DNA of 64,000 bases from Prevotella sp. (GTDB lineage: Bacteria > Bacteroidota > Bacteroidia > Bacteroidales > Bacteroidaceae). Position 1 is the first letter of the stretch, and each line of letters begins with the position of its first letter. Shown in pieces: positions 19,801-36,060 of this stretch. Made by a program: the position numbers and the translations under genes. The stretch covers positions 186,001-250,000 of the forward strand of contig JAFZSL010000051.1 in NCBI GenBank assembly GCA_017619375.1. The letters are read 5' to 3'. Under the pieces are notes generated by a model. It saw only the letters and a program-made list of their open reading frames with translations, was not told the DNA's origin and made no database searches.

Positions 19801-20342
19801 GGGATGTTGACTTGGAAGGAGAAGGAACTGGTGAAGACCTTGCTGTCCACGCTGACGACGGGAGCGTCGAGGCGTTGGTCGGCGAATTCCGCCGTGGCGT
19901 TGGTCTTGCCGGGTGTGGCGTCGGCCGTCCATCCCCATTCGCCAGTGCCGTCGGTCTTGCGTGCCCATGAGGTTCGGCTCATGGCCTCAGGGTATTCCTC
20001 GCTGGTGACGAGTTGCCCGTTCTTGTCGCTGAGGAGGATGGTGCCTCCGTCGCAGTCGAGTTTGAACGGGCCTTGGTTGGTCTTGATGTTATGGGAACCC
20101 AGCCACACCACCTTGAAGCCTTTGGCGGGGACGGTGCCCACGTCGCCTGGCATTCGCCACAAAGTGGGGTTGTTGGGGTCGTCACTGAGATACATGCCGC
20201 CGAGGTCGATGTCTTGGTCGCCAGGATTGTAAATCTCAATCCAACTGTCGAAATTGGTGGCTGGACTCATGGCCGTCCCGACGTTGGAGGCCATGATTTC
20301 ATTGATGATCAGTACTACTTCTAATAAAGTTGATAAAAGCAT
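16818..20342 (-). CDS. CotH/lamin-tail multidomain protein with T9SS sorting domain
   Basis: 1174 residues. In order: a lamin-tail domain at the very N-terminus (LIINEIMASN, WIEIYNPG), a chitobiase-type domain (LAYTTDGSLP ... GYLPSVPVTRSYI) interrupted by a carbohydrate-binding-like module (about 210-385, VINGDCEGDD ... YYFDDISWE), a CotH kinase-like domain (about 420-830, GSNDWPHNNIKGFR, YRFVTFDLDYAF), a second lamin-tail domain (VRINEVSAAN, DWVELYNTT), and a C-terminal T9SS type A domain (IELYNLAGQSVGQL ... KSCKFVKK). It is a paralogue of the gene at 20578-24477. The N-terminus shows only a short hydrophobic run (MLLSTLLEVVLII) already part of the lamin-tail fold, not a normal signal peptide. 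A Gly/Trp-rich insert lies at 19291-19332. It is likely surface-exposed; the substrate is unknown. Confidence 0.88.
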   Translation of the reverse strand: MLLSTLLEVVLIINEIMASNVGTAMSPATNFDSWIEIYNPGDQDIDLGGMYLSDDPNNPTLWRMPGDVGTVPAKGFKVVWLGSHNIKTNQGPFKLDCDGGTILLSDKNGQLVTSEEYPEAMSRTSWARKTDGTGEWGWTADATPGKTNATAEFADQRLDAPVVSVDSKVFTSSFSFQVNIPDGATLAYTTDGSLPQKPKQGQANNDWTDYVINGDCEGDDVTSLVGKDGDENGAFNTKIIDGVGYNGTRGVKVHAIANPSQDWDTQFFVFTPDHTWKTNEQFRFKMKVRADKDAHISVQAHSTPGNYISWQMLDNGYNVTTEWQEIVYEGTIRQEQTGGGGGGGWWWGGGGEDTSTLQTIAFNLNELRGTDNNYYFDDISWELFQGEDIPSSNVSTDGKFTVTNTTNYTFRLFQDGYLPSVPVTRSYIKTNDQYTIPVVSIVGDKKYFSDAKWGIDTEGTNGRTGNGQSQPRNYNMDWDRPVNFSFIDTEGKMTINQDVEISVSGGWTRSANPRSFKLKSGKEFDGMNSLDYTFFPQKPYIKNKVILLRNGGNDVWENGGSRFMDPALQTIIQRAEINLDLQSYVPVIEYVNGQMKGVLNMREPNNKKFVESNWGYDDDFIDMFEMSADSNVVFMVGTAEVLNRIYELGAAAPDPAAYEELKQILDIDEFLNYMAIELFLGSNDWPHNNIKGFRNQENGRYRFVTFDLDYAFKYDDPFKEFADDQWHTFNYIYDTNEERYEEIKLVTFFLNMLKNEEFRKKFIDTYCLIGGSVFDEVRGTAIVDELADRVRPMMQLEGWRSPDGSANVIKQQLKTRNASVTQKMQAFQPMQLSGVKRQEVTLSTDTKGANLYVNGLEVPYADFKGYLFAPVQLEAKAPAGYVFAGWKKNNASAFISTEPVISLPADNKMTLKACFTPLTEEERLEQYITPVRINEVSAANDIFVNEYWKRNDWVELYNTTDQPIDVAGMYLTDNLEKPHKYVIDKGETNANTVIPPHGHLIIWCDKLAPVSQLHASFKLDADGGDMMLSAADDSWSDVFTYPKHKKDETVGRYPDGCNTVQVMNYPTIEKTNITSSYAVNVPQPYTTGIEKTTLLADNDLTARYVIDRLIVRSKNSSDVQIELYNLAGQSVGQLKGHLQGGYAEIAVDHLTDGCYIARVTDENGQCKSCKFVKK

Positions 20343-20577: not shown

Positions 20578-23500
20578 TCATTGGTTGAGCACGATGTTCA
20601 CGATGGCGGTTATATCGGAGATGTTGACGTCTCCGTCGCCGTTGATGTCGGCGTTCTCGATATGGAAATTGGGCATCGTATGGCCGAGGATGTGGTCGAC
20701 GGTCATCGAAACGTCCACCACGGTCACGTAGCCGTCATGGTTGACGTCGCCCAACGGATATTTGATGTAGGTGACGGCGTAACTGCTGGTGATGTTGGCT
20801 TTCTCGATGGTGGGGATGTTCATCACCTGCACGGTGTTGCATCCGTCGGGGTATCTTCCCACCGTTTCGTCTTCTTTGTGCTCGGGGTAGGAGAATATTT
20901 CGCTCCAAGAGTCGTCGGCAGCGGAAAGCATGATGTTCCCACCATCGGCATCCAGTTTGAATGTTGCATGCAACTGACTGATGGCGAGTAGTTTGTCACA
21001 CCAGATGATAAGGTGTCCGTGTGGCTGTATGATGGTGTTGGCAGCGGACGTCCCTTTTTGTATCTGGCATTTGTGTGGCTTCTCCATGTTGTCGGTGATG
21101 TACATCCCCTCCACGTCGATGGGTTGGTCGGTGGTGTTGTAGAGTTCCACCCAGTCGTTGCGTTTCCAGTACTCGTTGACAAAGATGTTGTTGGCGGCAC
21201 TCACCTCGTTGATGCGCACGGGGGTGAAGCCTTGTTCGAGTCTCTCAGCCTCCGTCATCGGTGTGAAGCAGGCCTTCAGTTCCATCTTGCTGTCTGAGGG
21301 CAGTGTGATGGTCTCCTCGGTGGAGAAGTAGGTGTTGGCATTTCCTTTTTTCCATCCGGCAAAGGTGTATCCAGCCGGGGCCTTCGCTTCGAGTTGGACG
21401 GGTGCGAAGAGGTAGCCATTGAAATAGGTGTAGGGCACCTCGAGCCCGTTGACGTAGAGGTTGGCGCCCTCGGTGTCGGTGGAGAGTTTCACCTGTTGTC
21501 TTTGCACGGCGGAGAGTTGCATGGGTTGGAACTCCTTCATGCGTGAGGTCATCTGTGCGTTGCGGGTCTGCAGTTGGTTTTTGATTTTGTTGGCCGAACC
21601 GTCAGGGGTGTGGAATCCGTCGTACTGCATCATCGGGCGCACTCTGTCGGCCAGTTCGTCGACGATGGCTGTGGCGCGTTCTGTCTCGAAGACGCTGCCG
21701 CCGATGAGGCAGTAGGTGTCGATGAATTTCTTTCGGAAATCATTGTTCTTAAGCAAGTTGAGGAACAGGGTGACGAGTTTGATTTCTTCGACGCGCTCGC
21801 CTTCGATGTAATGGAAGTTAAAATACTGGTCCTCGACGAAGGCAGTGAAGGGGTTGTCATTGTTGAAGGCGAAGTCGAGGTCGAAGGTGACGAAGCGGTA
21901 CCTGCCGTCGTCCTGACTGCGGAAGCCCTTGATGTTGTTGTGTGGCCAGTCGTTGGAACCGAGGAAGAGTTCCACGGCCATGTAGTTGATATATTCGTCG
22001 ATGTCAAGGATTTTCATGAGTTCCTTGTAGGCTGTAGGGTCGGGAGATGCCGCCCCCAGTTCGTAGATGTGCTCGAGCACCTCGGCATTACCCACTTTGA
22101 AGACGACGTTGGAGTCGGGGCTCATCTCGAACATGTCGATGCGCTCGTCGTCATAGCCCCAGTTGGCTTCCACGAATCTCTTGTTGTTGGGTTCTCTCAT
22201 GTTGAGCACGCCCCTGAACTCACCGTTGACATATTCGATGATGGGTACGTAGGACTGCAGGTCGAGGTTGATGGCTGCTCGCTGTACGATGGTTTGGAGT
22301 GCGGGGTCCATGAAGCGGCTGCCGTTGTTCTCCCAGATGTCGTTACCTCCGTTGCGCAGGAGGATGGTCTTGTTTCTCAGGTAGGGCTTCTGTGGGAAGA
22401 ACATGTAGTTGAGGGTGTTCTGGCCATCAAACTCCTTGCCCGCCTTGAGTTTGAACGACCTCGGGGTGGCGGAGCGCGTCCATCCTCCGGAGACGTAGAT
22501 TTCCACGTCCTGGTTGATGGGCATTTCGCCTTCGGTGTCGATGAAGGAGAAGTTGACAGGGCGTTCCCAGTCCATGTTGTAGTTGCGTGGCTGCGTCTGC
22601 CCGTTGCCTGTCTTTCCGTTGGTGCCTTCGGTGTCGATGCCCCATTGGTTATCGGTGAAATATCGCCTGTCGCCTACGATGGAGACGACAGGGATGGTGT
22701 ATTGGTTGCTGGTCTTGATGAAGGAGCGTGTGACGGGTACGCTGGGCAGGTAGCCTTCCTGGAAGAGTCGGAAGCGGTAGTTGGTGGTGTTGTCGACGGT
22801 GAATAGTCCGTCTGCGCTGACTTTCGTGCTGGAATTGGTTCCGTCTTCGTATGCTTCCCATGAGATGTCGTCGAAATAGAAGTTGTTCTCCACCCCTCTC
22901 AACTCGTTAAGGTTGAAGGCTATGGTCTGCAGTGCTTTGCTGCCGCCACTCGTCTGGTCAGAGGTGATGGTCCCCTCATAGACGATTTCCTGCCAACTGG
23001 TGGTGATGTCGTACCCTCCATTGAGCATCTGCCAATAGATGTAGTTACCGGGTGTGGTATGCGACTGCACGGAGACGTGGCAGGCCTTGTCGGCACGCAC
23101 CTTCATCTTGAAGCGGTATTTCTCGTTGGTGTTCCAGGTGTGGTTGGGTGTATAGACGAAGAACTGGGTGTCCCAATCCTCGGAAGGATTGGCCACGGCG
23201 TGTACTTTCACGCCGCGTGAGCCGTCGTAGCCCGCTCCTTCGACGATTTTGGTGATGAATGTCCCGCCTTCGTCGCCATCCCTTCCCACGAGCGAGGTGA
23301 CATCGTCGCCCTCGCAGTTGCCGTTGATGACGTAGTTGACCCATGGAGTATTGATGATGTCCTCCTCCCATGAGATGTCGTCGAAATAGAAATTGTTCTC
23401 CTCTCCTCTCAACACATTGAGGTTGAAGGCGATGGTCTGCAGGTCTTTGCTGTTGTTGCTCGTCTGGTCGGAGGTGATGGTGCCCACAAAGACGATTTCC

Positions 23501-24477
23501 TGCCATTGGGTGGTGATGTCGTATCCTCCATCGAGCATCTGCCAAAAGATGTAGTTGCCTGGTGTGGTGTGCGACTGCACTGAGACGTGGCAGGCCTTGT
23601 CGGCACGCACCTTCATCTTGAAACGGTAATTGTCGTTGGTTTTCCACACGCGGTTGGGAGTGTATACGAAGAATTGGGTGTCCCAGTCCTCTGAAGGATT
23701 GGCCACGGCGTGTACTTTCACGCCGCGTGAGCCGTTGTAGCCCACTCCGTCGACGAATTTGGTGTTGAACCTTCCGCCTTCGTCGCCGTCCTTTCCCACA
23801 AGGGAGGTGTCGTCGTCGCCCTCGCAGTCGCCATTGATGACGTAGTTGGTCCATTGGCTGCCTTGTCCGCCTTGTCCGCTTTTCGGCTGTTCTGGCAGGC
23901 TGCCGTCGGTGGTGTATGCCAGCGTGGCGCCTTCGGGGATGTTGACTTGGAAAGAGAGGGAATTGGTGAAAATCTTGCTGTCCATACTGACGACAGGGGC
24001 ATCGAGTCGTTGGTCGGTGAATACTGCCTTGGCATTGCTTCTGCCGGGCGTGGCGTCGGCGGTCCATCCCCATTCGCCCGTGCCGTCGGTCTTGCGTGCC
24101 CATGAGGTGCGGCTCATCGCCTCTGGGTATTCCTCGCTGGTGACGAGTTGGCCGTTTCTGTCACTGAGATAGATGGTTCCGCCATCACAGTCGAGTTTGA
24201 AGGGGCCTTGGTTGGTCTTGATGTCGTGGGAGCCGAGCCACACTACCTTGAAACCCTTGGCAGGAACGATGCCCACGTCGCCGGGCATGCGCCAGAGGGT
24301 GGGGTTGGCAGGGTCGTCGCTGAGGTACATGCCACCGAGGTCGACGGCTTGGTCGCCGGGATTGTAGATTTCAATCCAACTGTCGAAATTGGTGGCTGGA
24401 CTCATGGTAGTCCCGACGTTGGAGGCCATGATTTCATTGATAATTAGAACGACTTCTAATAGGGTAGATAATAGCAT
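20578..24477 (-). CDS. CotH/lamin-tail multidomain protein with C-terminal dockerin
   Basis: 1299 residues, a close paralogue of the neighbouring gene with the same order: lamin-tail, split chitobiase-type domain, CotH domain (RYRFVTFDLDFAF) and second lamin-tail. There are two differences. The carbohydrate-binding-like module is present twice in tandem (a 510-bp in-frame duplication at about 22856-23875). The C-terminus is not a T9SS domain but a type I dockerin with two calcium loops, GDVNHDGYVTVVDVSMTVDH and ADINGDGDVNISDITAIVNI. A dockerin would bind a cohesin rather than give covalent surface anchoring. The N-terminus is the same unusual short hydrophobic run. A TACCTTTG box lies at 24516-24523. 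The CotH activity (protein kinase in spore-coat homologues) is not established in such multidomain proteins. Confidence 0.88.
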   Translation of the reverse strand: MLLSTLLEVVLIINEIMASNVGTTMSPATNFDSWIEIYNPGDQAVDLGGMYLSDDPANPTLWRMPGDVGIVPAKGFKVVWLGSHDIKTNQGPFKLDCDGGTIYLSDRNGQLVTSEEYPEAMSRTSWARKTDGTGEWGWTADATPGRSNAKAVFTDQRLDAPVVSMDSKIFTNSLSFQVNIPEGATLAYTTDGSLPEQPKSGQGGQGSQWTNYVINGDCEGDDDTSLVGKDGDEGGRFNTKFVDGVGYNGSRGVKVHAVANPSEDWDTQFFVYTPNRVWKTNDNYRFKMKVRADKACHVSVQSHTTPGNYIFWQMLDGGYDITTQWQEIVFVGTITSDQTSNNSKDLQTIAFNLNVLRGEENNFYFDDISWEEDIINTPWVNYVINGNCEGDDVTSLVGRDGDEGGTFITKIVEGAGYDGSRGVKVHAVANPSEDWDTQFFVYTPNHTWNTNEKYRFKMKVRADKACHVSVQSHTTPGNYIYWQMLNGGYDITTSWQEIVYEGTITSDQTSGGSKALQTIAFNLNELRGVENNFYFDDISWEAYEDGTNSSTKVSADGLFTVDNTTNYRFRLFQEGYLPSVPVTRSFIKTSNQYTIPVVSIVGDRRYFTDNQWGIDTEGTNGKTGNGQTQPRNYNMDWERPVNFSFIDTEGEMPINQDVEIYVSGGWTRSATPRSFKLKAGKEFDGQNTLNYMFFPQKPYLRNKTILLRNGGNDIWENNGSRFMDPALQTIVQRAAINLDLQSYVPIIEYVNGEFRGVLNMREPNNKRFVEANWGYDDERIDMFEMSPDSNVVFKVGNAEVLEHIYELGAASPDPTAYKELMKILDIDEYINYMAVELFLGSNDWPHNNIKGFRSQDDGRYRFVTFDLDFAFNNDNPFTAFVEDQYFNFHYIEGERVEEIKLVTLFLNLLKNNDFRKKFIDTYCLIGGSVFETERATAIVDELADRVRPMMQYDGFHTPDGSANKIKNQLQTRNAQMTSRMKEFQPMQLSAVQRQQVKLSTDTEGANLYVNGLEVPYTYFNGYLFAPVQLEAKAPAGYTFAGWKKGNANTYFSTEETITLPSDSKMELKACFTPMTEAERLEQGFTPVRINEVSAANNIFVNEYWKRNDWVELYNTTDQPIDVEGMYITDNMEKPHKCQIQKGTSAANTIIQPHGHLIIWCDKLLAISQLHATFKLDADGGNIMLSAADDSWSEIFSYPEHKEDETVGRYPDGCNTVQVMNIPTIEKANITSSYAVTYIKYPLGDVNHDGYVTVVDVSMTVDHILGHTMPNFHIENADINGDGDVNISDITAIVNIVLNQ
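22856..23875. repeat. 510-bp in-frame tandem duplication of a binding module
   Basis: The same stretch, opening with TCCCATGAGATGTCGTCGAA, starts at 22856 and again at 23366, a spacing of exactly 510 bases (170 residues). Each copy encodes the module ending YFDDISWE. Confidence 0.9.
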
Positions 24478-24742
24478 GATTAGGTTTTCTCGTTTTTTAA
24501 TTCGATTGCGTTGTGCAAAGGTAAGTAAATTTTGCGAGTGTCATCACTTTTTTTGCACTTTTTTTGTGAAATGATGTATGCTTGTTGTAATTGGCAGGTG
24601 TTCACCATCAACTGCCATCATCTTTTTGGAATATCTGTTTGACGCCTTTGCAAAAAAACAACAGATTATTTTGCGTTGTTTCAAATTTGCATTATCTTTG
24701 CATTTGCATTAATCTATCACGACCAACCAAACATTCAAGCAC
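24478..24742. promoter_or_regulatory. Divergent promoters for CotH-dockerin and deoxynucleoside kinases
   Basis: Minus strand: TACCTTTG at 24516-24523. Plus strand: TTTG (24670-24673), 19 bases and TATCTTTG (24693-24700) for the kinase pair. No gene lies between them. Confidence 0.7.
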
Positions 24743-25369
24743 GTGCATATCGTCATCGCAGGCAACATCGGCAGTGGGAAGACCACGCTCACCAAGCTTC
24801 TCGCCAAGCATTATGGATGGATTTCCAAGTTTGAGGCGGTGGAGCACAACCCCTATCTCGAGGACTACTACAATGACATCCCCCGATGGTCGTTCGCCTT
24901 GGAGGTGTATTTCCTCAAGCAGCGCTTCAAGGACCTGCTCGACATCGCACACGCCCGGGAGACGGTCATCCAGGACCGCAGCATTTTCGAGGGTGTGCAT
25001 GTCTTCACGGCCAACAACTACGCGATGGGCAACCTCGACGAGCGCGATTACAAGTGCTATATGGAATTGTTTGAGTCGATGATGTCAGCCGTGCACGTGC
25101 CAGACTTGATGATATACCTCCGGGCTTCCATCCCCCATTTGGTGGAGAACATACAGAAGCGCGGACGCGGGTATGAGCAGCAGATGCAGCTCGACTACCT
25201 GAAAAACCTCAACCGCCTCTACGATGAATTCATCTACCAGAAATATCCTGGCAAGGTGCTCACCGTGGAGGTGGACAACTTGGACTTCCTTAACCGCAAA
25301 GCCGACCTGGCGTCCATCACCGACCGTATCGATGCCATCCTCTTCGGCCTTTTTCCCCCACAAACATAA
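24743..25369 (+). CDS. Deoxynucleoside kinase, first of tandem pair
   Basis: A 208-residue cytoplasmic enzyme of the deoxynucleoside kinase family, which phosphorylates salvaged deoxynucleosides. The P-loop GNIGSGKTTL is at 7-16, the substrate-contact motif NPYLEDYY follows, and the QDRSIFE segment holds the conserved Asp-Arg-Ser. A lid-like Arg-rich helix (KRGRGYEQQ) is present. The start codon is GTG at 24743, shortly after the promoter at 24670-24700. It is followed after 13 bases by a second kinase gene. In lactobacilli two tandem kinases form a heterodimer (dAK with dGK or dCK); a similar pairing is possible here but is inferred only from gene order. Confidence 0.93.
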   Translation: MHIVIAGNIGSGKTTLTKLLAKHYGWISKFEAVEHNPYLEDYYNDIPRWSFALEVYFLKQRFKDLLDIAHARETVIQDRSIFEGVHVFTANNYAMGNLDERDYKCYMELFESMMSAVHVPDLMIYLRASIPHLVENIQKRGRGYEQQMQLDYLKNLNRLYDEFIYQKYPGKVLTVEVDNLDFLNRKADLASITDRIDAILFGLFPPQT

Positions 25370-25382
25370 CCCATAGAAAGCC

Positions 25383-26006
25383 ATGCATATAGCAATAGCA
25401 GGAAACATAGGCAGCGGAAAGACCACGCTGACCAGGATGCTCGCCAAACGTTACGGATGGGAGCCTCGTTTCGAACCCGTAGACAACAACCCCTACCTCG
25501 ACGATTTCTACGCCGACATGGAGAGATGGTCCTTCAACCTGCAGATTTACTTCCTCAACAAACGCTTCAAGGAAGTGGTGGAAATATCGAAGAGCAAGCA
25601 CTATATCATCCAGGATCGCACCATCTTCGAGGATGCCCGAATCTTCGCACCCAATCTCCACGACATGGGGATGATGAGCGACCGCGACTTTGCCAACTAT
25701 AGTGACCTCTTTGATTTGATGATTTCCTTGGTAGGCTTGCCCGACTTGATGATTTACATCCGTTCCACCATTCCCAATCTCGTGGCGCAAATCTCCAAGC
25801 GCGGGAGGGAGTTTGAAAAGTCCATCCGCATCGACTATCTGCAAGGACTCAACGAGCGCTACGAGGCATGGATATCAGGCTACAAGGGACAACTCATCAT
25901 CATCGATGGTGACACTTGCAAGTTTGAGAGCAACCCTGCCGATTTCGAGCGCATCACCGACCAGGTGGACTCGCGACTCTACGGCCTCTTCCCCTTCGGG
26001 GATTAG
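25383..26006 (+). CDS. Deoxynucleoside kinase, second of tandem pair
   Basis: A 207-residue paralogue of the preceding gene: P-loop GNIGSGKTTL at 7-16, NPYLDDFY, QDRTIFEDARIFAPN and KRGREFEKS. The Ser of the DRS motif is Thr here, and the region following it differs (DARIFAPNLHDMG against GVHVFTANNYAMG), the part that normally helps choose the base, so the two enzymes probably differ in substrate. It shares the operon with the first kinase. A hairpin at 26030-26070 may end the transcript. Confidence 0.93.
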   Translation: MHIAIAGNIGSGKTTLTRMLAKRYGWEPRFEPVDNNPYLDDFYADMERWSFNLQIYFLNKRFKEVVEISKSKHYIIQDRTIFEDARIFAPNLHDMGMMSDRDFANYSDLFDLMISLVGLPDLMIYIRSTIPNLVAQISKRGREFEKSIRIDYLQGLNERYEAWISGYKGQLIIIDGDTCKFESNPADFERITDQVDSRLYGLFPFGD

Positions 26007-26391
26007 CAGTTGTTTATTCTTTTTTGAGGACCGGTTTTCCAAGGGGTGTTAGTTTCTCAGGAATACCGGTTTCCCTATGTGTATGGTCTTTTTTGGTGAC
26101 TCTTTTCAGGATGATTGTTGCCTAAAAAGGGCGTTCTGCTCGTTAAAATGATAAAAAAACGCCTTGTAGCGAAAACTTTTCAAGAAAAAATAGGTGATTT
26201 GAAAAATTTTCCATAATTTTGCACATTGATTGATAGGCATGTCTAAATAGGCGGCATAGGCACTTCATCTGTAGACGGAAACGGGCCTTACAAGCTGCTT
26301 GCCACGCGTTGAGATTTTGATACACATATACATAACCATTACAATGATTGATTGAAGGCAACCTGACATCAAATGTTGTTAAATAATTGAA
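26007..26391. other. Intergenic region: weak terminator hairpin and leader of the cohesin/dockerin block
   Basis: An 11-bp stem with one mismatch (26030-26040 with 26060-26070) follows the kinase pair. A promoter-like TAATTTTG box lies at 26214-26221 with no matching -33 box; it would leave a leader of about 160 bases before the ATG at 26392. The leader has several tiny ATG-stop frames but no recognised riboswitch. Confidence 0.45.
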
Positions 26392-27051
26392 ATGCAAAAG
26401 AAATACATCACCCTGCTTCTTGCATTGCTTGGCTTCTCTATGGGAATGGAGGCCAAGTCAATAAACACGTATGGCTTCACCATCGGTGCCGGCCAGACAA
26501 GAGAGTTCTACATCTACATGAACACCACACGCAACAACCTGGTCTCCTTCCAAATTGACTTGATGATGCCTGAGGGCCTACATGTCAATGTTGACCGATG
26601 CGGGCTTCCCACCCGTGTGACCGACAAGGAACAGATGCTGTTTGTTGGCAAGTTGGATGCCAACAAATACCGTTTCGTCTCCACTTCCTACAACCTCATC
26701 CCGCTGACAATGGCCGATGCTCCCCTTTTGAAGGTCTCGGTCACTGCTGATGATGATTTCCAAGGTGGTACGGTGAATCTTGTCGACATGTTTGCCATTA
26801 GTTCTGTAGGACAGAAGACCGGGTGGATATCCGACTCCTTCGAGGTGACCACTTCCGAGGTGGTCAGGGGGGACGCCAACTATGATGGGCAAGTCACCGT
26901 ATCCGATGTGCTGGATGTCGTCAATTACATGCTGGGCAAGGAGACTCTCTTCTCCAGCACCTATGACCTCGATGCCAACAACCTGGTGGATATCGTGGAC
27001 GTGATGACCTGCTCCAACCTCTTGTTGGAAAGCATCAAAGTGACTGATTAG
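26392..27051 (+). CDS. Small secreted protein with cohesin-like domain and dockerin
   Basis: 219 residues. A signal peptide (MQKKYITLLLALLGFSMGMEA) is followed by a cohesin-like beta sandwich (about 25-150; GQTREFYIYMNTTRNNLVSF, QIDLMMPEGL) and a C-terminal type I dockerin with two calcium-loop repeats, GDANYDGQVTVSDVLDVVNY and YDLDANNLVDIVDVMTCSNL. Having both partner types in one short chain would let molecules join head to tail or bridge other dockerin/cohesin proteins. It is separated by 40 bases from the next gene and is probably co-transcribed. Domain calls rest on pattern recognition; the cohesin assignment is less certain than the dockerin. Confidence 0.8.
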   Translation: MQKKYITLLLALLGFSMGMEAKSINTYGFTIGAGQTREFYIYMNTTRNNLVSFQIDLMMPEGLHVNVDRCGLPTRVTDKEQMLFVGKLDANKYRFVSTSYNLIPLTMADAPLLKVSVTADDDFQGGTVNLVDMFAISSVGQKTGWISDSFEVTTSEVVRGDANYDGQVTVSDVLDVVNYMLGKETLFSSTYDLDANNLVDIVDVMTCSNLLLESIKVTD

Positions 27052-27091
27052 TAAAACAAAATAAAACAATCAATAATTCATTCATTACATT

Positions 27092-28231
27092 ATGAAAAAG
27101 TATTTACTTGGATTTGCCATGTTGCTTGCAGCTGGCACCACATTCGCACAGGATGAGTTCCTGTCCGTGTCGCCTTCCACTATTTCGCTCAAGCCAGGTG
27201 AGACGCAGGATGTCACCGTCACTTACAACGGTCCGGTTGAGAAGGGATACCTTTACAATGGATTCCAATTGACTGTAGAAATGCCTGAAGGGGTGGAACC
27301 GACTTGGCTGGTGAAAAAGGGAAAGAATACCTTTAATGTCCAATTGCTTAATTCTCTTGCCGACCAGAACATGTCGTATGGTGAGAACTTCATTCCATCC
27401 GACGACGAAAGCAATACTTCCGGTGTTGGCCTTTACAACCTTGCATTCTTTTTCGTCAGTGACGGCTTCGGAATCCCCTATGGTCCTGATGACGGGGATA
27501 CATGGGAAAGCATCGTGGAAGATATGTTCAAAATACGCTTGAAGGCTACCGACAAGGTGCAGACGGGTGAATTCAAATTAGCCGTTAAAGGTATCAAGTT
27601 CACTTATACTGTAGAAGATAGTGGTTCGGAAGCCACTCAGGAAGCAGTCATTTTTGATAATGTTCCTGTCGACTACAATCTCGGCATCGATTTCCCCATT
27701 GGCGACACAGGTTACGCCACACTCTGCTGGCCTACCGCCCTCGACTTCTCTGGCAATGACTTCCAGGCCAACATCGGCGTGGGGGTGACAGGCACCACAT
27801 TCATGACACTCTCAGAGGTGGAGAAAGTCCCGGCCAACACTCCGCTGGTCATCAAGGGCACACCGGGAACTTACAGCCTCACCACCACCAAGGGTGATGT
27901 CGAAGATGTTTCTGACAACATCCTCAGTGGCACTCCGACAGAAACCTTGAAAGTGGAGGAAGGCGCAAACATCTATGCTTTGGCTTCCAAGACCGAGGGC
28001 ATAGGTTTCTATCGTTGCCTGGTTGATGTGGTCATACCTCAGTACAAGGCATACTACGCTCCCGAAGCAGCAGCAACTGACGCATACCTCTTTGAGGAAA
28101 CCACCGGCATCGACCAGACCGCAGTGGAAGCCTCTGATGCAGACATCTACACCATTTCCGGTGTGAAAGTGTCCAATGCATCACAAAAGGGTGTTTATAT
28201 CGTCAATGGAAAGAAAGTCGTTGTCAAATAA
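27092..28231 (+). CDS. Secreted cohesin-like protein with short T9SS-type tail
   Basis: 379 residues with a signal peptide (MKKYLLGFAMLLAAGTTFAQ). Residues ~22-190 form a cohesin-like or Ig-like sandwich (SVSPSTISLKPGETQDVTVT, FQLTVEMPEGVEP). A second beta domain typical of Prevotella exported proteins follows (GYATLCWPTALDF ... GFYRCLVDVVIPQYKAYY). The end, IYTISGVKVSNASQKGVYIV then NGKKVVVK, is the short sorting tail shared with three other genes here. No catalytic motif is seen, so a structural or binding role is likely. A strong hairpin terminator follows. Confidence 0.8.
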   Translation: MKKYLLGFAMLLAAGTTFAQDEFLSVSPSTISLKPGETQDVTVTYNGPVEKGYLYNGFQLTVEMPEGVEPTWLVKKGKNTFNVQLLNSLADQNMSYGENFIPSDDESNTSGVGLYNLAFFFVSDGFGIPYGPDDGDTWESIVEDMFKIRLKATDKVQTGEFKLAVKGIKFTYTVEDSGSEATQEAVIFDNVPVDYNLGIDFPIGDTGYATLCWPTALDFSGNDFQANIGVGVTGTTFMTLSEVEKVPANTPLVIKGTPGTYSLTTTKGDVEDVSDNILSGTPTETLKVEEGANIYALASKTEGIGFYRCLVDVVIPQYKAYYAPEAAATDAYLFEETTGIDQTAVEASDADIYTISGVKVSNASQKGVYIVNGKKVVVK

Positions 28232-28294
28232 GCAACGGCCATCCATTCATACCCAAGAAGACCCCTATGGATAGGAGGCTTGACTAAGGGTTGA

Positions 28295-28338
28295 TCCCGA
28301 ATTGTGGAACGACGACCTTCGTTCCACAGTTCGGGATT
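28295..28338 (+). terminator. Terminator hairpin
   Basis: An 18-bp stem with one G-U pair (28295-28312 with 28321-28338) and an 8-base loop, after the two-gene unit at 26392-28231. Confidence 0.8.
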
Positions 28339-28444
28339 AAAAGAAACCAAACATCACTTTTCCCCATTGGTACATTTATAATATATAATAAGGTGGGAAA
28401 GAGGATTGGTGTTTTACCGAATAATTATAAATCAAACTATTGAT

Positions 28445-31400
28445 ATGAGACATTTACGATTATTGTTAACATTCATGTCAGCCTGTGCCGTGACATTGGT
28501 CTCTGCAGTCACTTTTTCCGTCGACGGAATAAGGTATACTGTGATGTCCACATCGGAGCGCACCGTTTCCCTCACAGGCTGGGATAAGAATTCTAGCCAG
28601 GCTGACGGCCCTGTCGACCCGGAAATTCCGACACGTGTGCAGTACAATGGCATTTATTATAAAGTGACCTCCATCGGTGCGAATGCGTTGTCCGAGTGCA
28701 TATCACTTCAGCAGATTTCCATCCCCAACTCCGTGGAATCCATTGGTGAATATGCTTTCCAAGGGTGCTTCAACCTTCAGATTGTCAAGGTGCAATGGAC
28801 CTATCCCATTAGTATCGAGGCCAACGTCTTTGACGGGGTTGACCTTTCCGCCGCCACCCTCGTCGTCCTTCCGGGTTACAAATCTGACTATCTGGAAGCC
28901 GATGTGTGGAAGGATTTTGGAACCATCAACACCTATAACTACCAAGAAGTCTTGGATTTCAACATGTGGTTCAAGGACCCGCATGTGAAGGATGTCTGTG
29001 TTTCCAATTGGGACACCAGTGGAGACGGCGAGCTTACCTATCGTGAGGCACAGGCCGTCACCGACATAGGTGCAGCATTCATGGGCGACACCGAGATGAA
29101 GAGTTTCACCGAGTTGCGTTCCTTCTCTGGTATCACCGAGATTCCTGCCTCCACGTTCAAGGGATGCTCCAACCTCACGGAAATCTTCATTTCTCCCAGT
29201 GTCACCGTCATTGGTCAAGAGGCATTCGTGGGATGTGAGAAATTGGATACGGTCATCTTCCAGTCCACAACAGCAGCCAAACTCAACACCATCGGCCGTT
29301 CCGCTTTCGCTGGATGTGCTGCTTTGCGCACCTTCGTCCTTCCCGCAAGCCTGGTCACCATTGAAGATCATGCTTTCGATGGATGTAGCAGCATCACCAC
29401 CGTCAACATCCCGTCAAAGGTGACGTCCATCGGCGACGGCGCTTTTGCCAACTGTACCTCCCTTGCCACATTCACGGTGAGCAGCAGCAACAAGTCTTTT
29501 GTCCAAAGCACGGGAAAGACCTACATCACCAACAAGGGCGAAAAGAGCATTCTCTATTGCTTTGCTCAGGGTGCATCACAGAAGAACATCACCATCCCCG
29601 CCAGCATTACGGAGATCAGGCCCTATGCTTTCCAAGGGGCCAAGAACATGGAACAACTCACTCTCAACAAGGTGTACCAAGTGGGCAATGAAGCCTTCTC
29701 CGACTGCCCCAAACTTTATACTGTGTTGATGGGCGACACCCTTTCATACATTGGCACCAACGCCTTCAGGGGCATTGCCAAGGGAGTCAGGGTTCAAGTG
29801 CTTTGGGACACTCCACTCGATATCAGCGCAGGTACATTCAGCACCAATGAGACCGTGCCTGTCGGAGAACTCAATGGTCGTCTTTTCGTTCCTGTCGGTA
29901 CAAAGAACGACTATCAGGCTGCCACGGGATGGGATTGGTTCTCTTTCATAGAGGAAGGCACCATCGCCGACTATGCCAACAAGATCATCAACTTTGCCGA
30001 CGAGCGGACACGCGACCTCTGTGTAGATGCTTTCGATTCAGACAATGACGGCTACCTCACCACAGACGAGGCTGCCGCCGTTACCTCCATCGGCAACATC
30101 TTCAAGAACTCCGACATCGGAAGTTTCAATGAGTTCAAGTATTTCACCTCGCTTGCCAACATCGGTGCCAATGCTTTCGAAGGAAGCACGGTATCCTCGA
30201 TCATAATGCCCGAGAGCATCAAGGTGATTGGCGACAATGCCTTTGCTTTCTGCAACAACCTCACCACCATCACCATCCCCAAGGCAGTGGAGAACATCGG
30301 TGTGGGACCATTCAAGGCATGTGAGAGCCTCAAGACCATCAATGTTGATTCGGAGAATCCCAACTATGTCAGTTCAAACGGAACACTCTTCAATATTGAC
30401 CGTACCACACTGATTCAGTTTGTTGCAAACAACTCGCTGACGAAGATTTCCATCCCCAAGGCTGTGGTCACCATAGCACCTGAGGCTTTCTATGGAGCAT
30501 CCAAACTCCTTTCTGTCAACCTTTCCACAAGCGACGTCTCCTCCATCGGCGAGGAAGCCTTTGCTGAATGCACCTCCCTCAATAGTGTAAAGGTCGGTTG
30601 GGCCACCCCGCTCAGCGTGCCTGAGAACGTGTTCGACGGAGTCGACCTCGCCAATGCCACACTGACCGTTCCCAACGGTATGGAAAACATCTATAGGGAA
30701 GCACCGGTGTGGAAGAACTTTGGCAACTATGCCACCTTCAAGTCGTTTGTCATATTCGCCGATGCTAACGTCGAGCGTATTTGCGTGGAGAAATGGGACA
30801 CCAACGGCGATGGAAGACTCGGATATGACGAGGCTGCAGCCGTGACCGCTCTTGACAACAGTTTCGAGGGCAACACTGACATCACCTCTTTTGAAGAGTT
30901 GGTGGAGTTCACCGGCATCACCAGCATCCCGGAACAGGCTTTCAGGGGTTGTTCGGCCCTTGCCAAACTAACCTTGCCCACCAAGGTGACCACCATCGGA
31001 GCAGAAGCTTTCAAAGGCTGCACCGCACTCAACAATGTCACCTTGCCCTCCACCCTCGTCACCATCGGCGACAAGGCATTCTATGGTTGTGACGCATTCA
31101 CCACATGTTCCATCCCCGCCAACGTTGAAGCTGTTGGCAAGGGTGCATTTGGAAGTTGCTCGTCACTCAAGTCGTTCTCGGTCAATTCCAAGAATACTCA
31201 TTTCCGTGCCATCGGATCCATCCTCTTCACACGCGACTCCACAACCGTCGTGCAGTTCCCGGCTGCTATCAACCGCACCAGTTTCGAGGTGTCCAGCAGC
31301 GTGTTCAAGCACATCTATCCTTATGCATTCAGCGGAGCAACCAAGTTGAAGACCGTTGTGTTCAATTCCGCAGAGACCATTGGCGAGTACGCCTTTGAGA

Positions 31401-34285
31401 AATGTGTGGGGATCACCAACCTCAATATCGGCGAAAATGTGAAGACCATCGGCGAGTGCGCATTCATCGACTGCCAGAACCTGCAGGCCATCAACATCCC
31501 AACCAATGTGCAAAGCATAGGTGCGAAAGCCTTCAACGGAATGCCGGCAGGTGTAAGATGCCAGGTGACATGGACGACCCCGCCAACCATCCCCGCCAAC
31601 ACCTTCTCCAATTTCGAAGCCTTGACGCAAGGCCAGATCACAGGCATTCTCTTTGTGCCAACTGGGGCAAAGGCAGCCTTTGAGACAGCCCAAGGATGGA
31701 ACTTCTTCAACATCGTATACGAGGGCAACATGGCTGACTATGATGCCACCCTCATCACCTTCACCGACCCGCTCGTGAAGCAACTTGCCGTGGCTGCTTG
31801 GGACACCGACGGTGACAACCAACTCAGCTATACCGAGGCCGAGGCCGTCAAGTCCTTAGGGACGGTGTTTGCAGGAAAGGACATCACCACTTTCAACGAG
31901 TTAAAGTACTTCACCGCTGTCACAGAGGTGAATGCCAACGCTTTCAAGGACTGTTCCGCCCTCACCAAAGTGACATTGCCGACGGCTGTCACGTCCATCG
32001 GGTCGGAAGCATTCGAAGGATGCTCCACGCTTGCCAATGTCTCCTTGCCTGCCACCCTCGTCACCATCGGCGACAAGGCGTTCTATGGATGCGAGGCGTT
32101 CACCACATGCGACATCCCCGTCAACGTGGCGACAGTAGGCAAGGGTGCCTTTGGTAGTTGTACGGCTCTCAAGTCGTTCACAGTCAACTCCAACAACACT
32201 CATTACCGTGCCATCGGTTCCATCCTCTTCACAAAAGACTCCACCACTGTCGTGCAGTTCCCGGCTGCCATCAACCGCTCCTATTTCGAGGTTTCGAGCA
32301 GCAAGTTCAAGAACGTCTATCCCTATGCCTTCAGTGGAGCACTCAATTTGAAGACCGTCGTGCTGAACTCCGTGGAGACCATCGGTGAGAACGCCTTCGA
32401 GAAATGTGAGGGACTTGCCACCATCACCATCCCGTCTGCCGTGAAGTCCATAGGCAACTATGCCTTCCTTGATTGTTCACAACTCGACTCTGTCACAGTC
32501 GAATGGCGCACTCCTCTTGCAGTGCCTGCCAACACCTTCGAGGGTGTCGACGTGGCAAATGCAACCCTCAACGTGCCAAAGGGCACAGACGCGTTGTACA
32601 GGAGTGCAAACGTATGGAAGGACTTCGGCAGAATCATCATCTATCTTGATGATGAGTCCACCATCGACTTCGAGGACGATTTGGTCAAGGCTATCTGTGT
32701 CGCCAACTGGGACAAGGACGGCGATGGAGAACTCACCGTGGGTGAGGCCAAGTTGGCCAAGAGCCTTGGAGCCTACTTCAAGGGAACGGAAATCAAGCGG
32801 TTCACAGAACTGAAATATTTCACAGGACTCACAAGCATCTTGTCAAGAGCCTTCGATGGTTGTTCACAATTGGAAGCCATCACCCTTCCGAAGGGCATCA
32901 AGAAAATCGATTCCTATGCCTTCCAAGGCTGTACAAGCCTGAAGGCCATAGAGATTCCATCTACCGTCACCGACATCTTGTATGCTGCATTCAATGACTG
33001 CTCAAGTTTGAAGGTCGTCGAAATTCCGGCTTCTGTCACCAACATTTATGTGAATGGAGTGTTCACCAACTGCACCTCACTTGAGGAATTCAAGGTGGAC
33101 GCTGGCAACACCCGCTTCATGGCTGAGGATGGTGTCCTCTTCAATATCAACAAGACCACACTCGTTGCCTATCCCGGTGGCAAGGCTGGTGAATACGTCG
33201 TTCCCGATGGTGTCACCACCATCCGTCAGTATGCTTTCTGTGGTGCTTCCAAGATCACTCGTTGCCATCTGCCAAAGACGCTTACTGCCATTCCTTATGG
33301 TGCGTTTGCCAAGTGTTCGTCAATGACCTATGTCAACATTCCTGCTTCAGTGCAGAGCATCGACCAGTTCGCCTTCACACAGTGCACGAAACTTGCTGTG
33401 ATGAAATTGGGATGGATGGTTCCGCTTGAAGAGCCGAACGTCACAGGCAACGTCTTCCAGGACATTCAGACAGAAGACATACGTCTTTATGTCCCCGCTG
33501 GTACGAAGTACGACTATATGGATGCTCCCATTTGGGAGAATTTCAAGGAGTACATCGAGTACACCAACTGTGATGTCAACCTTGACGGATTTGCCGACAT
33601 GCTCGATGCTGTGGATGTCGTCAAGTATGTGGTCGGCACACCTGCCATCACCATCGATCCGTTCCTGGCCGACTTCGACGATGACGAGTTTGTCACCGTT
33701 GCCGATGCTGTCATGCTCGTGAGCATGATTGCCAATGGCGAGGCTGCACCCAACATCAATGCTGCTCCAGCACACTTCGACAAGGAGGAGGAACTCACCA
33801 TCACCATGTCCTCCAACAATGTCTTGTCGCTGAACCTTTGCAGTCCCATCAGGTACACTGCCTTCCAGTTCGACCTCACCCTGCCGGGCATCAGCGAAGT
33901 GGAACTTGCACAACTGTCTCAGAGAGCCACACGCGGCCATCAGTTGGTGTACAACAAGATTGGTGACAACACCTACCGTTTCGCCTCCATCTCCTTCAGC
34001 AACGCACCTTTCAGTGAGTTCGAGGGGGCTATCATCAACATCCAGACAGGAGCCGCCGACCCCGATGAAATCCTGGTCAGCAATATCAAGTTTGTCTCCC
34101 TGGATGGTGCCATCCATTCCTTCGACAATGTCGACCAGGCATTGCCTACCGGCATCGTGGAGATACAGGACAGCCGCTCCGCCGCTTTCGAGAACGGAGT
34201 ATACTACAACCTCAACGGCGTGAAGGTGGAGAAGCCTGGAAAGGGTGTCTACATCGTCAACGGCAAGAAAGTAATCATCAAATAA
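28445..34285 (+). CDS. Giant BspA-like leucine-rich-repeat surface protein with EF-hand-like loops, dockerin-like pair and sorting tail
   Basis: 1946 residues from the ATG at 28445, which begins the signal peptide (MRHLRLLLTFMSACAVTLVSA). It has many LRR_5 repeats of the Treponema/BspA type (IGEYAFQGC, IGDGAFANC, IGENAFEKC). Between the LRR blocks lie five EF-hand-like calcium loops at residues ~190 (DTSGDGELTYREA), 531 (DSDNDGYLTTDEA), 785 (DTNGDGRLGYDEA), 1120 (DTDGDNQLSYTEA) and 1423 (DKDGDGELTVGEA). At 1710-1766 is a dockerin-like pair (CDVNLDGFADMLDAVDVVKY, LADFDDDEFVTVADAVMLV), then a cohesin-like domain and the tail GVYIVNGKKVIIK. BspA-type proteins bind host proteins and other bacteria. 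The next gene follows after 11 bases and is clearly in the same operon. Confidence 0.9.
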   Translation: MRHLRLLLTFMSACAVTLVSAVTFSVDGIRYTVMSTSERTVSLTGWDKNSSQADGPVDPEIPTRVQYNGIYYKVTSIGANALSECISLQQISIPNSVESIGEYAFQGCFNLQIVKVQWTYPISIEANVFDGVDLSAATLVVLPGYKSDYLEADVWKDFGTINTYNYQEVLDFNMWFKDPHVKDVCVSNWDTSGDGELTYREAQAVTDIGAAFMGDTEMKSFTELRSFSGITEIPASTFKGCSNLTEIFISPSVTVIGQEAFVGCEKLDTVIFQSTTAAKLNTIGRSAFAGCAALRTFVLPASLVTIEDHAFDGCSSITTVNIPSKVTSIGDGAFANCTSLATFTVSSSNKSFVQSTGKTYITNKGEKSILYCFAQGASQKNITIPASITEIRPYAFQGAKNMEQLTLNKVYQVGNEAFSDCPKLYTVLMGDTLSYIGTNAFRGIAKGVRVQVLWDTPLDISAGTFSTNETVPVGELNGRLFVPVGTKNDYQAATGWDWFSFIEEGTIADYANKIINFADERTRDLCVDAFDSDNDGYLTTDEAAAVTSIGNIFKNSDIGSFNEFKYFTSLANIGANAFEGSTVSSIIMPESIKVIGDNAFAFCNNLTTITIPKAVENIGVGPFKACESLKTINVDSENPNYVSSNGTLFNIDRTTLIQFVANNSLTKISIPKAVVTIAPEAFYGASKLLSVNLSTSDVSSIGEEAFAECTSLNSVKVGWATPLSVPENVFDGVDLANATLTVPNGMENIYREAPVWKNFGNYATFKSFVIFADANVERICVEKWDTNGDGRLGYDEAAAVTALDNSFEGNTDITSFEELVEFTGITSIPEQAFRGCSALAKLTLPTKVTTIGAEAFKGCTALNNVTLPSTLVTIGDKAFYGCDAFTTCSIPANVEAVGKGAFGSCSSLKSFSVNSKNTHFRAIGSILFTRDSTTVVQFPAAINRTSFEVSSSVFKHIYPYAFSGATKLKTVVFNSAETIGEYAFEKCVGITNLNIGENVKTIGECAFIDCQNLQAINIPTNVQSIGAKAFNGMPAGVRCQVTWTTPPTIPANTFSNFEALTQGQITGILFVPTGAKAAFETAQGWNFFNIVYEGNMADYDATLITFTDPLVKQLAVAAWDTDGDNQLSYTEAEAVKSLGTVFAGKDITTFNELKYFTAVTEVNANAFKDCSALTKVTLPTAVTSIGSEAFEGCSTLANVSLPATLVTIGDKAFYGCEAFTTCDIPVNVATVGKGAFGSCTALKSFTVNSNNTHYRAIGSILFTKDSTTVVQFPAAINRSYFEVSSSKFKNVYPYAFSGALNLKTVVLNSVETIGENAFEKCEGLATITIPSAVKSIGNYAFLDCSQLDSVTVEWRTPLAVPANTFEGVDVANATLNVPKGTDALYRSANVWKDFGRIIIYLDDESTIDFEDDLVKAICVANWDKDGDGELTVGEAKLAKSLGAYFKGTEIKRFTELKYFTGLTSILSRAFDGCSQLEAITLPKGIKKIDSYAFQGCTSLKAIEIPSTVTDILYAAFNDCSSLKVVEIPASVTNIYVNGVFTNCTSLEEFKVDAGNTRFMAEDGVLFNINKTTLVAYPGGKAGEYVVPDGVTTIRQYAFCGASKITRCHLPKTLTAIPYGAFAKCSSMTYVNIPASVQSIDQFAFTQCTKLAVMKLGWMVPLEEPNVTGNVFQDIQTEDIRLYVPAGTKYDYMDAPIWENFKEYIEYTNCDVNLDGFADMLDAVDVVKYVVGTPAITIDPFLADFDDDEFVTVADAVMLVSMIANGEAAPNINAAPAHFDKEEELTITMSSNNVLSLNLCSPIRYTAFQFDLTLPGISEVELAQLSQRATRGHQLVYNKIGDNTYRFASISFSNAPFSEFEGAIINIQTGAADPDEILVSNIKFVSLDGAIHSFDNVDQALPTGIVEIQDSRSAAFENGVYYNLNGVKVEKPGKGVYIVNGKKVIIK
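30898..32430 (+). repeat. Long internal duplication within the LRR gene
   Basis: The stretch from about 30898-31420 is repeated at about 31900-32430, offset by about 1.0 kb. Long near-identical protein runs are shared, for example VGKGAFGSC, AIGSILFT, DSTTVVQFPAAINR and YPYAFSGA. It marks a recent module duplication. Confidence 0.8.
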
Positions 34286-34296
34286 GCATCGAGACA

Positions 34297-34950
34297 ATGA
34301 GAAAGAACATCATATTCCTGGTCGTCGCTCTTCTGGGCATCGCCAGTTTCTCCAAGGCAGAGAATGTGAGCATCGATGATTTCACCATCAAGCAGGGAGA
34401 CATCGTACAGGTGCCCCTGAAACTCACCAACACCAACACCAACCTCACGGCGTTCAGCATGACGCTGACATTGCCGAATGGCTTGAAACTCCTGGGTGGG
34501 GAATCCACCAGTCGCTTTGCAGGCACCATCGAGGTGGGTTCGCCCGACACCAATGTGTATAATGTCTGCGGCATCGATCTTGCCTCAGGCGTCATCAGCG
34601 GGACTTCCGGCGATCTTGTCATCCTCACTTTTGAGGCAAGTCAGGATTTCAAGGGTGGTTATGCAACCATCACTGAGGTGGACTTCATCACCAACGACCG
34701 CAGGCATGTCAGATGCGCTGACAGTTCCTTCAAGGTCGACTACGAGCCTTCCGGCAACCTGTTTATCGGGGATGTCGACAATAACGGCATCGTTGACATT
34801 TCCGACGTGATGAGCGCAGTCAACAAGATGCTGGGCAAGAATGTGTCACCCTTCAATTTCGCCAATGCCGACACCGATGGCAGCGGTGAAATCGACATCG
34901 TTGACGTGATGAACATTGTCAATATCATGTTGGGCAAGAAAAGTTCTTAG
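34297..34950 (+). CDS. Small secreted protein with cohesin-like domain and dockerin
   Basis: 217 residues with a signal peptide (MRKNIIFLVVALLGIASFSKA). A cohesin-like domain follows (about 23-150; DFTIKQGDIVQVPLKLTNT, AFSMTLTLPNGLKLL, LVILTFEASQDFKGGYATI), then a dockerin with both loops well kept: GDVDNNGIVDISDVMSAVNK and ADTDGSGEIDIVDVMNIVNI. It is the best cohesin match in the block. It lies 11 bases after the giant LRR gene and is followed by a textbook terminator, so it is the last gene of that operon. It resembles the protein at 26392 in layout but differs in sequence, so the two could pair with different partners. Confidence 0.85.
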   Translation: MRKNIIFLVVALLGIASFSKAENVSIDDFTIKQGDIVQVPLKLTNTNTNLTAFSMTLTLPNGLKLLGGESTSRFAGTIEVGSPDTNVYNVCGIDLASGVISGTSGDLVILTFEASQDFKGGYATITEVDFITNDRRHVRCADSSFKVDYEPSGNLFIGDVDNNGIVDISDVMSAVNKMLGKNVSPFNFANADTDGSGEIDIVDVMNIVNIMLGKKSS

Positions 34951-35163: not shown

Positions 35164-36060
35164 ATGAGAAAAGTCAAGCAACTGAAAGACTTGCTGCCCC
35201 TCGCCGTGAAGGGCATTGTCCTCGCAGCCGCCGGTGTGGACACCGGCACGTTGATGGCAGCGGCAACCGACCTCCCCGATACCGGGAAGACACGTTCGGG
35301 CAACGAATTGTACAAAGGAACCACCGAGCACCATGCTACGGCCGGTGCGGCGGCAACACACCCCAAGAACCCTGAAGGCATCCTCACCGAGTCCTTCTCC
35401 CGCATCGATGGAGATGACGAGATGTACCAGAAAGACATCGACGAGCGCATCACACGCATCAGGCCCATGGCCACACCCATCGACCAGATTTCGCGTTACG
35501 CCACCGCACAGCGAGCCAAGTCGTTCGAGGTGAAGTACTACAGCGTGGGGACACGTCCGGTGAAAACCACCCTTACAGCCGCCGTCACGGCATCAAGCAA
35601 TGTCTCCACCGCCATACAGGTGGCCGACCCGGACATGTTCACCCTCGACGACACCATACGCGTCGTAGGTGTCAAGGCTCTCTACAACTACAAGGGGACG
35701 GCATACAACGCCGGCGATGCCGCCACTCCCGACCTCGTGCTCTGTGTCTGCGGAAAGACCTCCAGCGGACAGCCCATCGTCTATGCCGTCAACGGAACGC
35801 TTGTCGGCGGGCAACCCATCGGACTCCCCGACATCGACAACAACACCACACTCATAAGGATGGGTAAGTCGTGTGGGGAACTTGACGTGCAGACAGGGCG
35901 CTTCAACAACATCCCCACCTCCGAACTGCAGTATTGTCAGAACTTCATGGCGCAGATAGAGCAGTCCACCCTTGACAAAATTGCCGCCAAGGAGGTGAAC
36001 TGGGGCTTCTTGTACAAGATGTGGTGGAAGGACAGAACGTCGACCGCGTTTGTCGGGTGA
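35164..36060 (+). pseudogene. Phage major capsid-like protein, probably C-terminally truncated
   Basis: 298 residues. The core KDIDERITRIRPMATPIDQI, the following SRYATAQRAKSFEVKYYSVG, the region with MFTLDDTIRVVGV and LVLCVCGKTSSG, and ELDVQTGRFNNIPTSELQYC closely match a capsid-like protein family I know from Bacteroides phages. The resemblance breaks off after DKIAAKEVNWGF; the last 16 residues (LYKMWWKDRTSTAFVG) look out of frame, as if a deletion fused this gene with the next. A full-length member would be about 80 residues longer. A TATCTTTG box lies at 35116-35123. The family match is from memory; the truncation is an inference. Confidence 0.6.

Follow-up and report, generated by a model that had tools for sequence, protein, structure and literature searches.

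Types I and II give two levels of assembly in clostridial cellulosomes, and the Firmicute Ruminococcus flavefaciens has several dockerin classes, scaffoldins with multiple cohesins, and attachment by sortase. Ruminococcus albus and R. bromii are Gram-positive, with neither an outer membrane nor a type IX secretion system (T9SS). Single non-cellulosomal cohesins occur in Clostridium perfringens and Archaeoglobus fulgidus, and we know of no genome-wide set of dockerin tails in either. The closest earlier work, by Bensoussan et al. in 2017, reportedly tested rumen cohesin–dockerin pairs. Here we describe a genome (4.26 Mb in 78 contigs, 99.98% complete) of a Prevotella-like bacterium whose closest relatives come from ruminants; its cohesin and dockerin modules look like parts of a cellulosome-style assembly, here in Gram-negative bacteria. 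The analysis centers on a stretch of 64,000 nucleotides, hereafter the window (assembly GCA_017619375.1, contig JAFZSL010000051.1, positions 186,001 to 250,000 of the forward strand; G000:C67:186001-250000 in our numbering), in which an initial annotation had noted a set of genes with cohesins, dockerins and T9SS tails; we confirm this set. We consider it probable, at roughly 0.68, that the cluster encodes part of an outer-surface cohesin–dockerin assembly.

That annotation had also proposed that short adaptors joining a cohesin to a dockerin would be a different design from the classical cellulosome. This does not hold: PMC4081043 reports 5–11 ScaC-like adaptors per strain of R. flavefaciens, and one each in R. 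albus 7 and SY3. The genome of the window resembles R. flavefaciens in its bimodular adaptors and many dockerin proteins (PMC4081043), and it resembles R. albus and R. bromii as described there and in PMC6118326, where dozens of dockerins accompany one or few cohesins. Unlike in R. flavefaciens, T9SS tails would serve as anchors here, there are one or two cohesins per protein, and much of the cargo consists of peptidases and leucine-rich repeat (LRR) proteins. The differences from known adaptor systems lie in the phylum, in the predicted anchoring through the T9SS and in the swapping of dockerin and T9SS tails among paralogues.

Dockerins have been reported in rumen Bacteroidetes, with an undefined role in the context of polysaccharide loci (PMC7480376), and cohesin or dockerin modules in rumen and gut Bacteroidetes (PMC4035507, PMC6071333, PMC12997984). 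The last of these calls the presence of both modules in 78 human-gut Bacteroidetes metagenome-assembled genomes (MAGs) surprising, states that no cellulosome systems have been described outside the Firmicutes, and says that the Bacteroidetes modules need further investigation. A 2018 study (PMC5831590) detected neither cohesins nor dockerins in the genome of a rumen Bacteroidetes lineage that has T9SS-linked cellulases. The passages of the four module reports used here do not describe T9SS coupling, dockerin classes or gene pairs, and among titles and abstract openings we found no description of a T9SS-coupled cohesin–dockerin assembly.

A conserved cluster of cohesin and dockerin genes

The cluster consists of four co-directional genes on the forward strand, here A to D, separated by 40 bases (A–B), about 210 bases (B–C, from the coordinates) and 11 bases (C–D). 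The two small outer proteins are alike: protein A (26392–27051, 219 aa) has a signal peptide-like start, a cohesin at about 26452–26859 and a dockerin at about 26869–27018, and protein D (34297–34950, 217 aa) has a similar start, a cohesin at about 34354–34743 and a dockerin at about 34768–34926. Each holds one cohesin and one dockerin in a single polypeptide, predicted to be secreted from its signal peptide-like start, which is the composition of a ScaC-type adaptor. Protein B (27092–28231, 379 aa) also has a signal peptide-like start, followed by a divergent cohesin (about 27155–27658) and a short T9SS C-terminal domain (CTD) at about 28103–28228, which makes it anchor-like. Protein C (28445–34285) has 1946 aa from its ATG, in an open reading frame (ORF) that opens earlier, at TTG 28406 (1959 aa); it carries BspA-type LRRs, EF-hand-like motifs, a dockerin (about 33572–33727), a cohesin (about 33788–34153) and a short CTD (about 34157–34282). 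EF-hand_1 scores 35.4 bits in this protein, best at residues 542–555 of the 1959-aa ORF, outside the dockerin. Farther along the same strand, a 418-aa protein (50870–52126) has a signal peptide-like start, a cohesin-like domain (about 50939–51241) and a short T9SS CTD (about 51998–52123).

The initial annotation had called for a check of conservation, and the order A-B-C-D is kept in four loci of relatives (L005, L006, L007 and L008). The five relatives of protein D found in a collection of named genomes all belong to MAGs of Prevotella or Prevotellaceae, and by their titles two of these MAGs are from sheep omasum and buffalo rumen; a plasmid collection yielded no relative of protein A. More broadly, we examined 29 loci, one per genome and each around that genome's best cohesin match, and in 20 a gene with a dockerin stands before one with a cohesin on the same strand, with gaps of −4 to 170 bases. 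These loci span about 1.5 kb on each side, so more distant partner genes escape. In two of them, from relatives within the family, the gene directly after a dockerin gene encodes three cohesins in about 560 aa (L093, 1408–3102; L100, 229–1917), a small protein that resembles a scaffoldin. The same succession of a dockerin gene and an ORF with a cohesin match recurs in loci L152 and L185 of G157, a genome of another genus.

The cohesins

The cohesin-like domains had been proposed from their pattern, and structure models, predicted one chain at a time, show the cohesin beta-sandwich fold in protein D and, less well, in protein B. Even the solved cohesins that match best share little sequence with it (9–22% identity among the best 31 matches listed). 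Against the curated cut-off of 24.1 for the Pfam cohesin family PF00963 (type I-like), D scores 26.5, while A, B, C and the protein at 50870 fall below; only two places in the whole genome exceed it. A profile search of the genome places cohesins at 14 sites with E below 1e-7, and B follows at 0.03. Genes of the window itself served as seeds for the profiles; the first, A1, recovered no cohesin from PDB sequences, and the broader A4 did. Chance as the source of the cohesin calls is rejected by the fold and profile evidence.

Two classes of dockerin

The genome contains 60 Dockerin_1 matches (E 0.001) in 60 ORFs, and no more than 12 residues separate the end of the dockerin from the C terminus in 33 of them, and no more than 45 in 51. 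We aligned 58 of the 60, leaving out two that were too short, and both repeats are near DVNGDGEVNITDVT. The two calcium-loop/helix repeats (D1 N3 D5 D12) are well kept, with D1 and D12 present in 58/58 rows each in repeat 1 and in 52/58 and 57/58 in repeat 2. The dockerins of A and C, which taken alone lie below the Pfam PF00404 cut-off, keep both repeats. A glycine-rich tail (like TFGGGGNGPAR) follows some dockerins; L030, L055 and L047 of the same genome fit one pattern, and others are similar.

The repeats vary in concert at a few positions. At position 14, threonine or serine occupies both repeats in 41 rows and a hydrophobic residue both in 9, with only 2 mixed (Fisher 2.7e-8) and alanine or a gap in the remaining 6; thinning to 35 sequences below 60% identity leaves 20, 8 and 2 (1.3e-5). 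Among 18 positions, agreement between repeats rises above shuffles at 9, 14 and 18, with a weak signal at 7; the remaining positions show no excess, in some cases for lack of variation. Matched residues in the two repeats underlie the dual binding mode of dockerins, and here the putative recognition residues do match. Of the positions named for R. albus (10, 11, 17 and 18), 10 and 17 are nearly invariant, 11 lacks excess agreement and 18 agrees above shuffles; the residues predicted there at 10 and 11, V(I) and T (PMC4081043), resemble the I/V and, mostly, T found here.

The hydrophobic class includes A, C and D, and it is enriched in proteins that also bear a cohesin, which make up 6/9 of this class vs 4/49 of the rest (p 3.5e-4). 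Both repeats of A's dockerin have left this class in L007 and L008 (T/S and G/T). G157 (about 3.4 Mb, 78% complete) has 95 dockerin matches; in a sample of 55, valine occupies position 14 in 53/55 first and 52/55 second repeats, and the recognition residues are nearly invariant (one of the 82 dockerins from relatives could not be parsed). Two of the sampled dockerin proteins have a cohesin match; in the one where it is clear, L185 at 45 bits, the dockerin departs from this type. The repeats also agree at position 14 in G222 (12 dockerins, p 0.027).

The folds could be real with no pairing between them, the dockerin-like tails serving as calcium-stabilized C-terminal caps and the cohesin-like domains as generic beta-sandwich spacers, much as X modules sit beside some dockerins. 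Cohesin and dockerin do often adjoin in the same chain, identity to solved cohesins is low, and dockerins far outnumber cohesins. Calcium binding alone, however, hardly explains either the near-invariance of the 55 G157 dockerins or paired variation at few positions, which is the trace expected from a symmetric, dual-mode partner surface; moreover, cohesins without a dockerin of their own adjoin a dockerin gene, and L093 and L100 hold three cohesins in one protein. We regard an arrangement without pairing as unlikely.

Dockerin and T9SS tails replace one another

With a profile built from short T9SS tails, 124 places in the genome match at E up to 1, and 96 of these fall below 0.001. Proteins B, C and 50870 score 62–66 bits with the short-CTD profile A5, whose rows include them. 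They are predicted T9SS cargo, with the motif at the C terminus and SprA and GldM encoded in the genome, and this favors the earlier view of sorting-tailed cohesins as likely anchors. Their tails resemble the short CTDs of Prevotella intermedia in a GI near the cleavage region, a motif B with Tyr and Gly, GxYI and a basic end (PMC11969387). In contrast to that study, whose main text does not mention dockerins, CTD and dockerin are mutually exclusive here except in cohesin-bearing proteins: only five CTD matches lie inside dockerin ORFs, each also with a cohesin. By pattern, T9SS tails occur in 0/50 dockerin-only proteins, 5/10 dockerin-plus-cohesin proteins and 2/3 cohesin-only proteins in that set, with B besides.

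A feature beyond the initial annotation is that paralogues exchange these tails. It is plainest in two tandem CotH genes on the reverse strand. The first (16818–20342) has lamin-tail and CotH domains and ends in a T9SS CTD (about 16821–17015), which scores 30.1 bits with TIGR04183 (cut-off 23) and 26.6 with Pfam Por_Secre_tail, just below 27; the second (20578–24477) has the same body and a C-terminal dockerin (about 20593–20754). Two long alignments give 76% and 79% identity, and the longer stops at a shared SSYAV, beyond which lies the T9SS tail in one and the dockerin in the other. Both proteins begin MLLSTLLEVVLIINEIMAS, with no convincing signal peptide from that start. In a wider comparison (E 1e-10, best match only), 32 of 46 dockerin cargo proteins match one of 60 T9SS-tailed proteins fetched from the 124 CTD places. 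Ten of the 32 matches reach within 40 residues of both tails, such as an M6 peptidase with 73% identity over 562 residues; three of the ten are only 152–172 residues long, all against the same protein. Besides the two CotH proteins, the exchange takes in an M6 peptidase, four C10 peptidases, a rhamnogalacturonan lyase and a serpin.

Dockerin-only cargo might instead stay in the periplasm, with any assembly there or incidental, and surface cohesins might serve, for example, the dockerins of other rumen bacteria. The T9SS route is available (96 CTD matches at E below 0.001) and unused by dockerin-only proteins, and in R. albus strain 8, for which 62 dockerin proteins are reported, no cohesin was found, so dockerins can occur without a cohesin in the same genome (PMC4081043). 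The cargo argues otherwise: plant-polymer enzymes (GH5, GH43, GH13 with CBM26, two RGL11 lyases) and LRR proteins are likely used outside the cell, and several of the same enzymes have CTD-tailed paralogues. A periplasmic or incidental role is, in our judgment, quite improbable.

Cargo and distribution in the family

In five batches we scanned 42 of the 60 dockerin proteins for cargo domains, some of the other 18 being examined separately. The scan found eight peptidases (five C10, two M6, one S8), seven carbohydrate-active proteins (GH5, GH13 with CBM26, GH30, GH43, a GH catalytic core and two RGL11), one serpin and about ten proteins with LRR or DUF285 repeats; Cthe_2159 proteins are also among the cargo. 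Plant cell wall enzymes with dockerins are thus present (GH5, GH43, GH30 and two RGL11), but they are a minority. By a crude hydrophobicity rule for signal peptides, 52 of 60 closed-start ORFs pass in a mixed set of dockerin and cohesin-only proteins.

Across 301 genomes of the family, dockerins occur in 193, SprA in 229 and cohesins (profile A1) in 126; SprA is present in 116/126 cohesin-bearing genomes vs 113/175 others. Counting as dockerin-rich those genomes with 8 or more matches (survey counts near 20 mean at least that number), SprA occurs in 12/12 that are at least 90% complete, vs 118/169 overall (hypergeometric p 0.011), and in 42/47 at any completeness (p 0.012), a tie between dockerin richness and T9SS that is weak on its own. 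The five SprA-negative dockerin-rich genomes have GldM. Among genomes that lack SprA, GldM was found in six that have cohesins or many dockerins, the check leaving out the cohesin-bearing G209, G256, G268, G279 and G289; three dockerin-poor controls have neither marker; low dockerin counts (2 each) without SprA or GldM occur in G002, G003 and G013.

A true cellulosome acquired from Firmicutes would account for the cellulase or pectin lyase families, the serpin and the Cthe_2159 proteins among the cargo. Carbohydrate-active enzymes, however, are only 7 of the 42 scanned proteins, beside 8 peptidases and about ten LRR or DUF285 proteins, no long scaffoldin was found in the genome, and cohesins (126/301) and dockerins (193/301) are spread through the family. 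Such an origin is very hard to credit.

Genes flanking the cluster

Two tandem deoxynucleoside kinase-like genes lie 5' of the cluster (24743–25369 and 25383–26006), the first matching Pfam dNK; L005 has both as well, and L006 has at least the second. Directly after the cluster, a 298-aa gene (35164–36060) belongs to phage family phrog_26635, with a weak match to the SU10 major capsid protein. Its counterparts in L006, L007 and L008 are 490–506 aa long and are followed by a weak virion protein match (L006) or an integrase (L007), and the gene in the window seems only a remnant.

A putative surface assembly

In the assembly that we propose, the CTD-bearing cohesin proteins (B, C, 50870 and others in the genome) would be exported and fixed to the surface as anchors, and the small proteins A and D would bridge between cohesins. 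The cargo would be about fifty dockerin proteins without a T9SS signal, including many secreted enzymes and adhesin-like proteins. One dockerin class, mostly on cargo, and the other, mostly on cohesin-bearing proteins, could give two assembly levels.

Several observations weigh against this proposal. The position 14 split was picked after the alignment was viewed; 4 of the 10 dockerin-plus-cohesin proteins fall outside the hydrophobic class, the weak cohesin match of G157 (L163, 19 bits) has an ordinary V-class dockerin, and the heterogeneous dockerins of G246 show no significant agreement (p 0.084, n=14). Cohesins are few, at 14 places vs 60 dockerins, and as far as profile A4 sees the genome has no long, non-catalytic multi-cohesin scaffoldin, the maximum being two cohesins per protein (C15:9674). 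The dockerin part of the D model is poor (pLDDT 47–66) and uninformative on docking to its own cohesin. Because the profiles were seeded by the window's genes, the 29 loci favor this layout; by the narrow A1 profile, 9 of the 47 dockerin-rich genomes have no cohesin; and because genomes and paralogues are related, P values overstate independence and family-wide counts include kin. Some of the 32 tail-exchange matches are shared repeat or part regions, at least half of the cargo protein being covered in 18 of them. Finally, dockerin-only cargo lacks a T9SS signal, which leaves its arrival at the surface unexplained.

For this last step we offer a tentative and rather doubtful possibility, that the dockerin acts as a T9SS signal in trans: cargo without a CTD would bind a CTD-bearing cohesin protein in the periplasm, cross the T9SS pore with it and be fixed to the surface. 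On this view a dockerin could take the place of a CTD and be swapped for it, and tail exchange between paralogues is what such a replacement would look like.

The genome offers a testable scheme, with two dockerin classes whose recognition residues can be read and with candidate anchor and adaptor genes. It also provides two tandem CotH genes that share a body and differ in their tails, and it poses a specific question: how cargo with a dockerin but no T9SS signal would cross the outer membrane. If the proposal is true, cellulosome-like assembly would be a wider surface strategy of Bacteroidota, organizing peptidases, adhesin-like proteins and polysaccharide enzymes.
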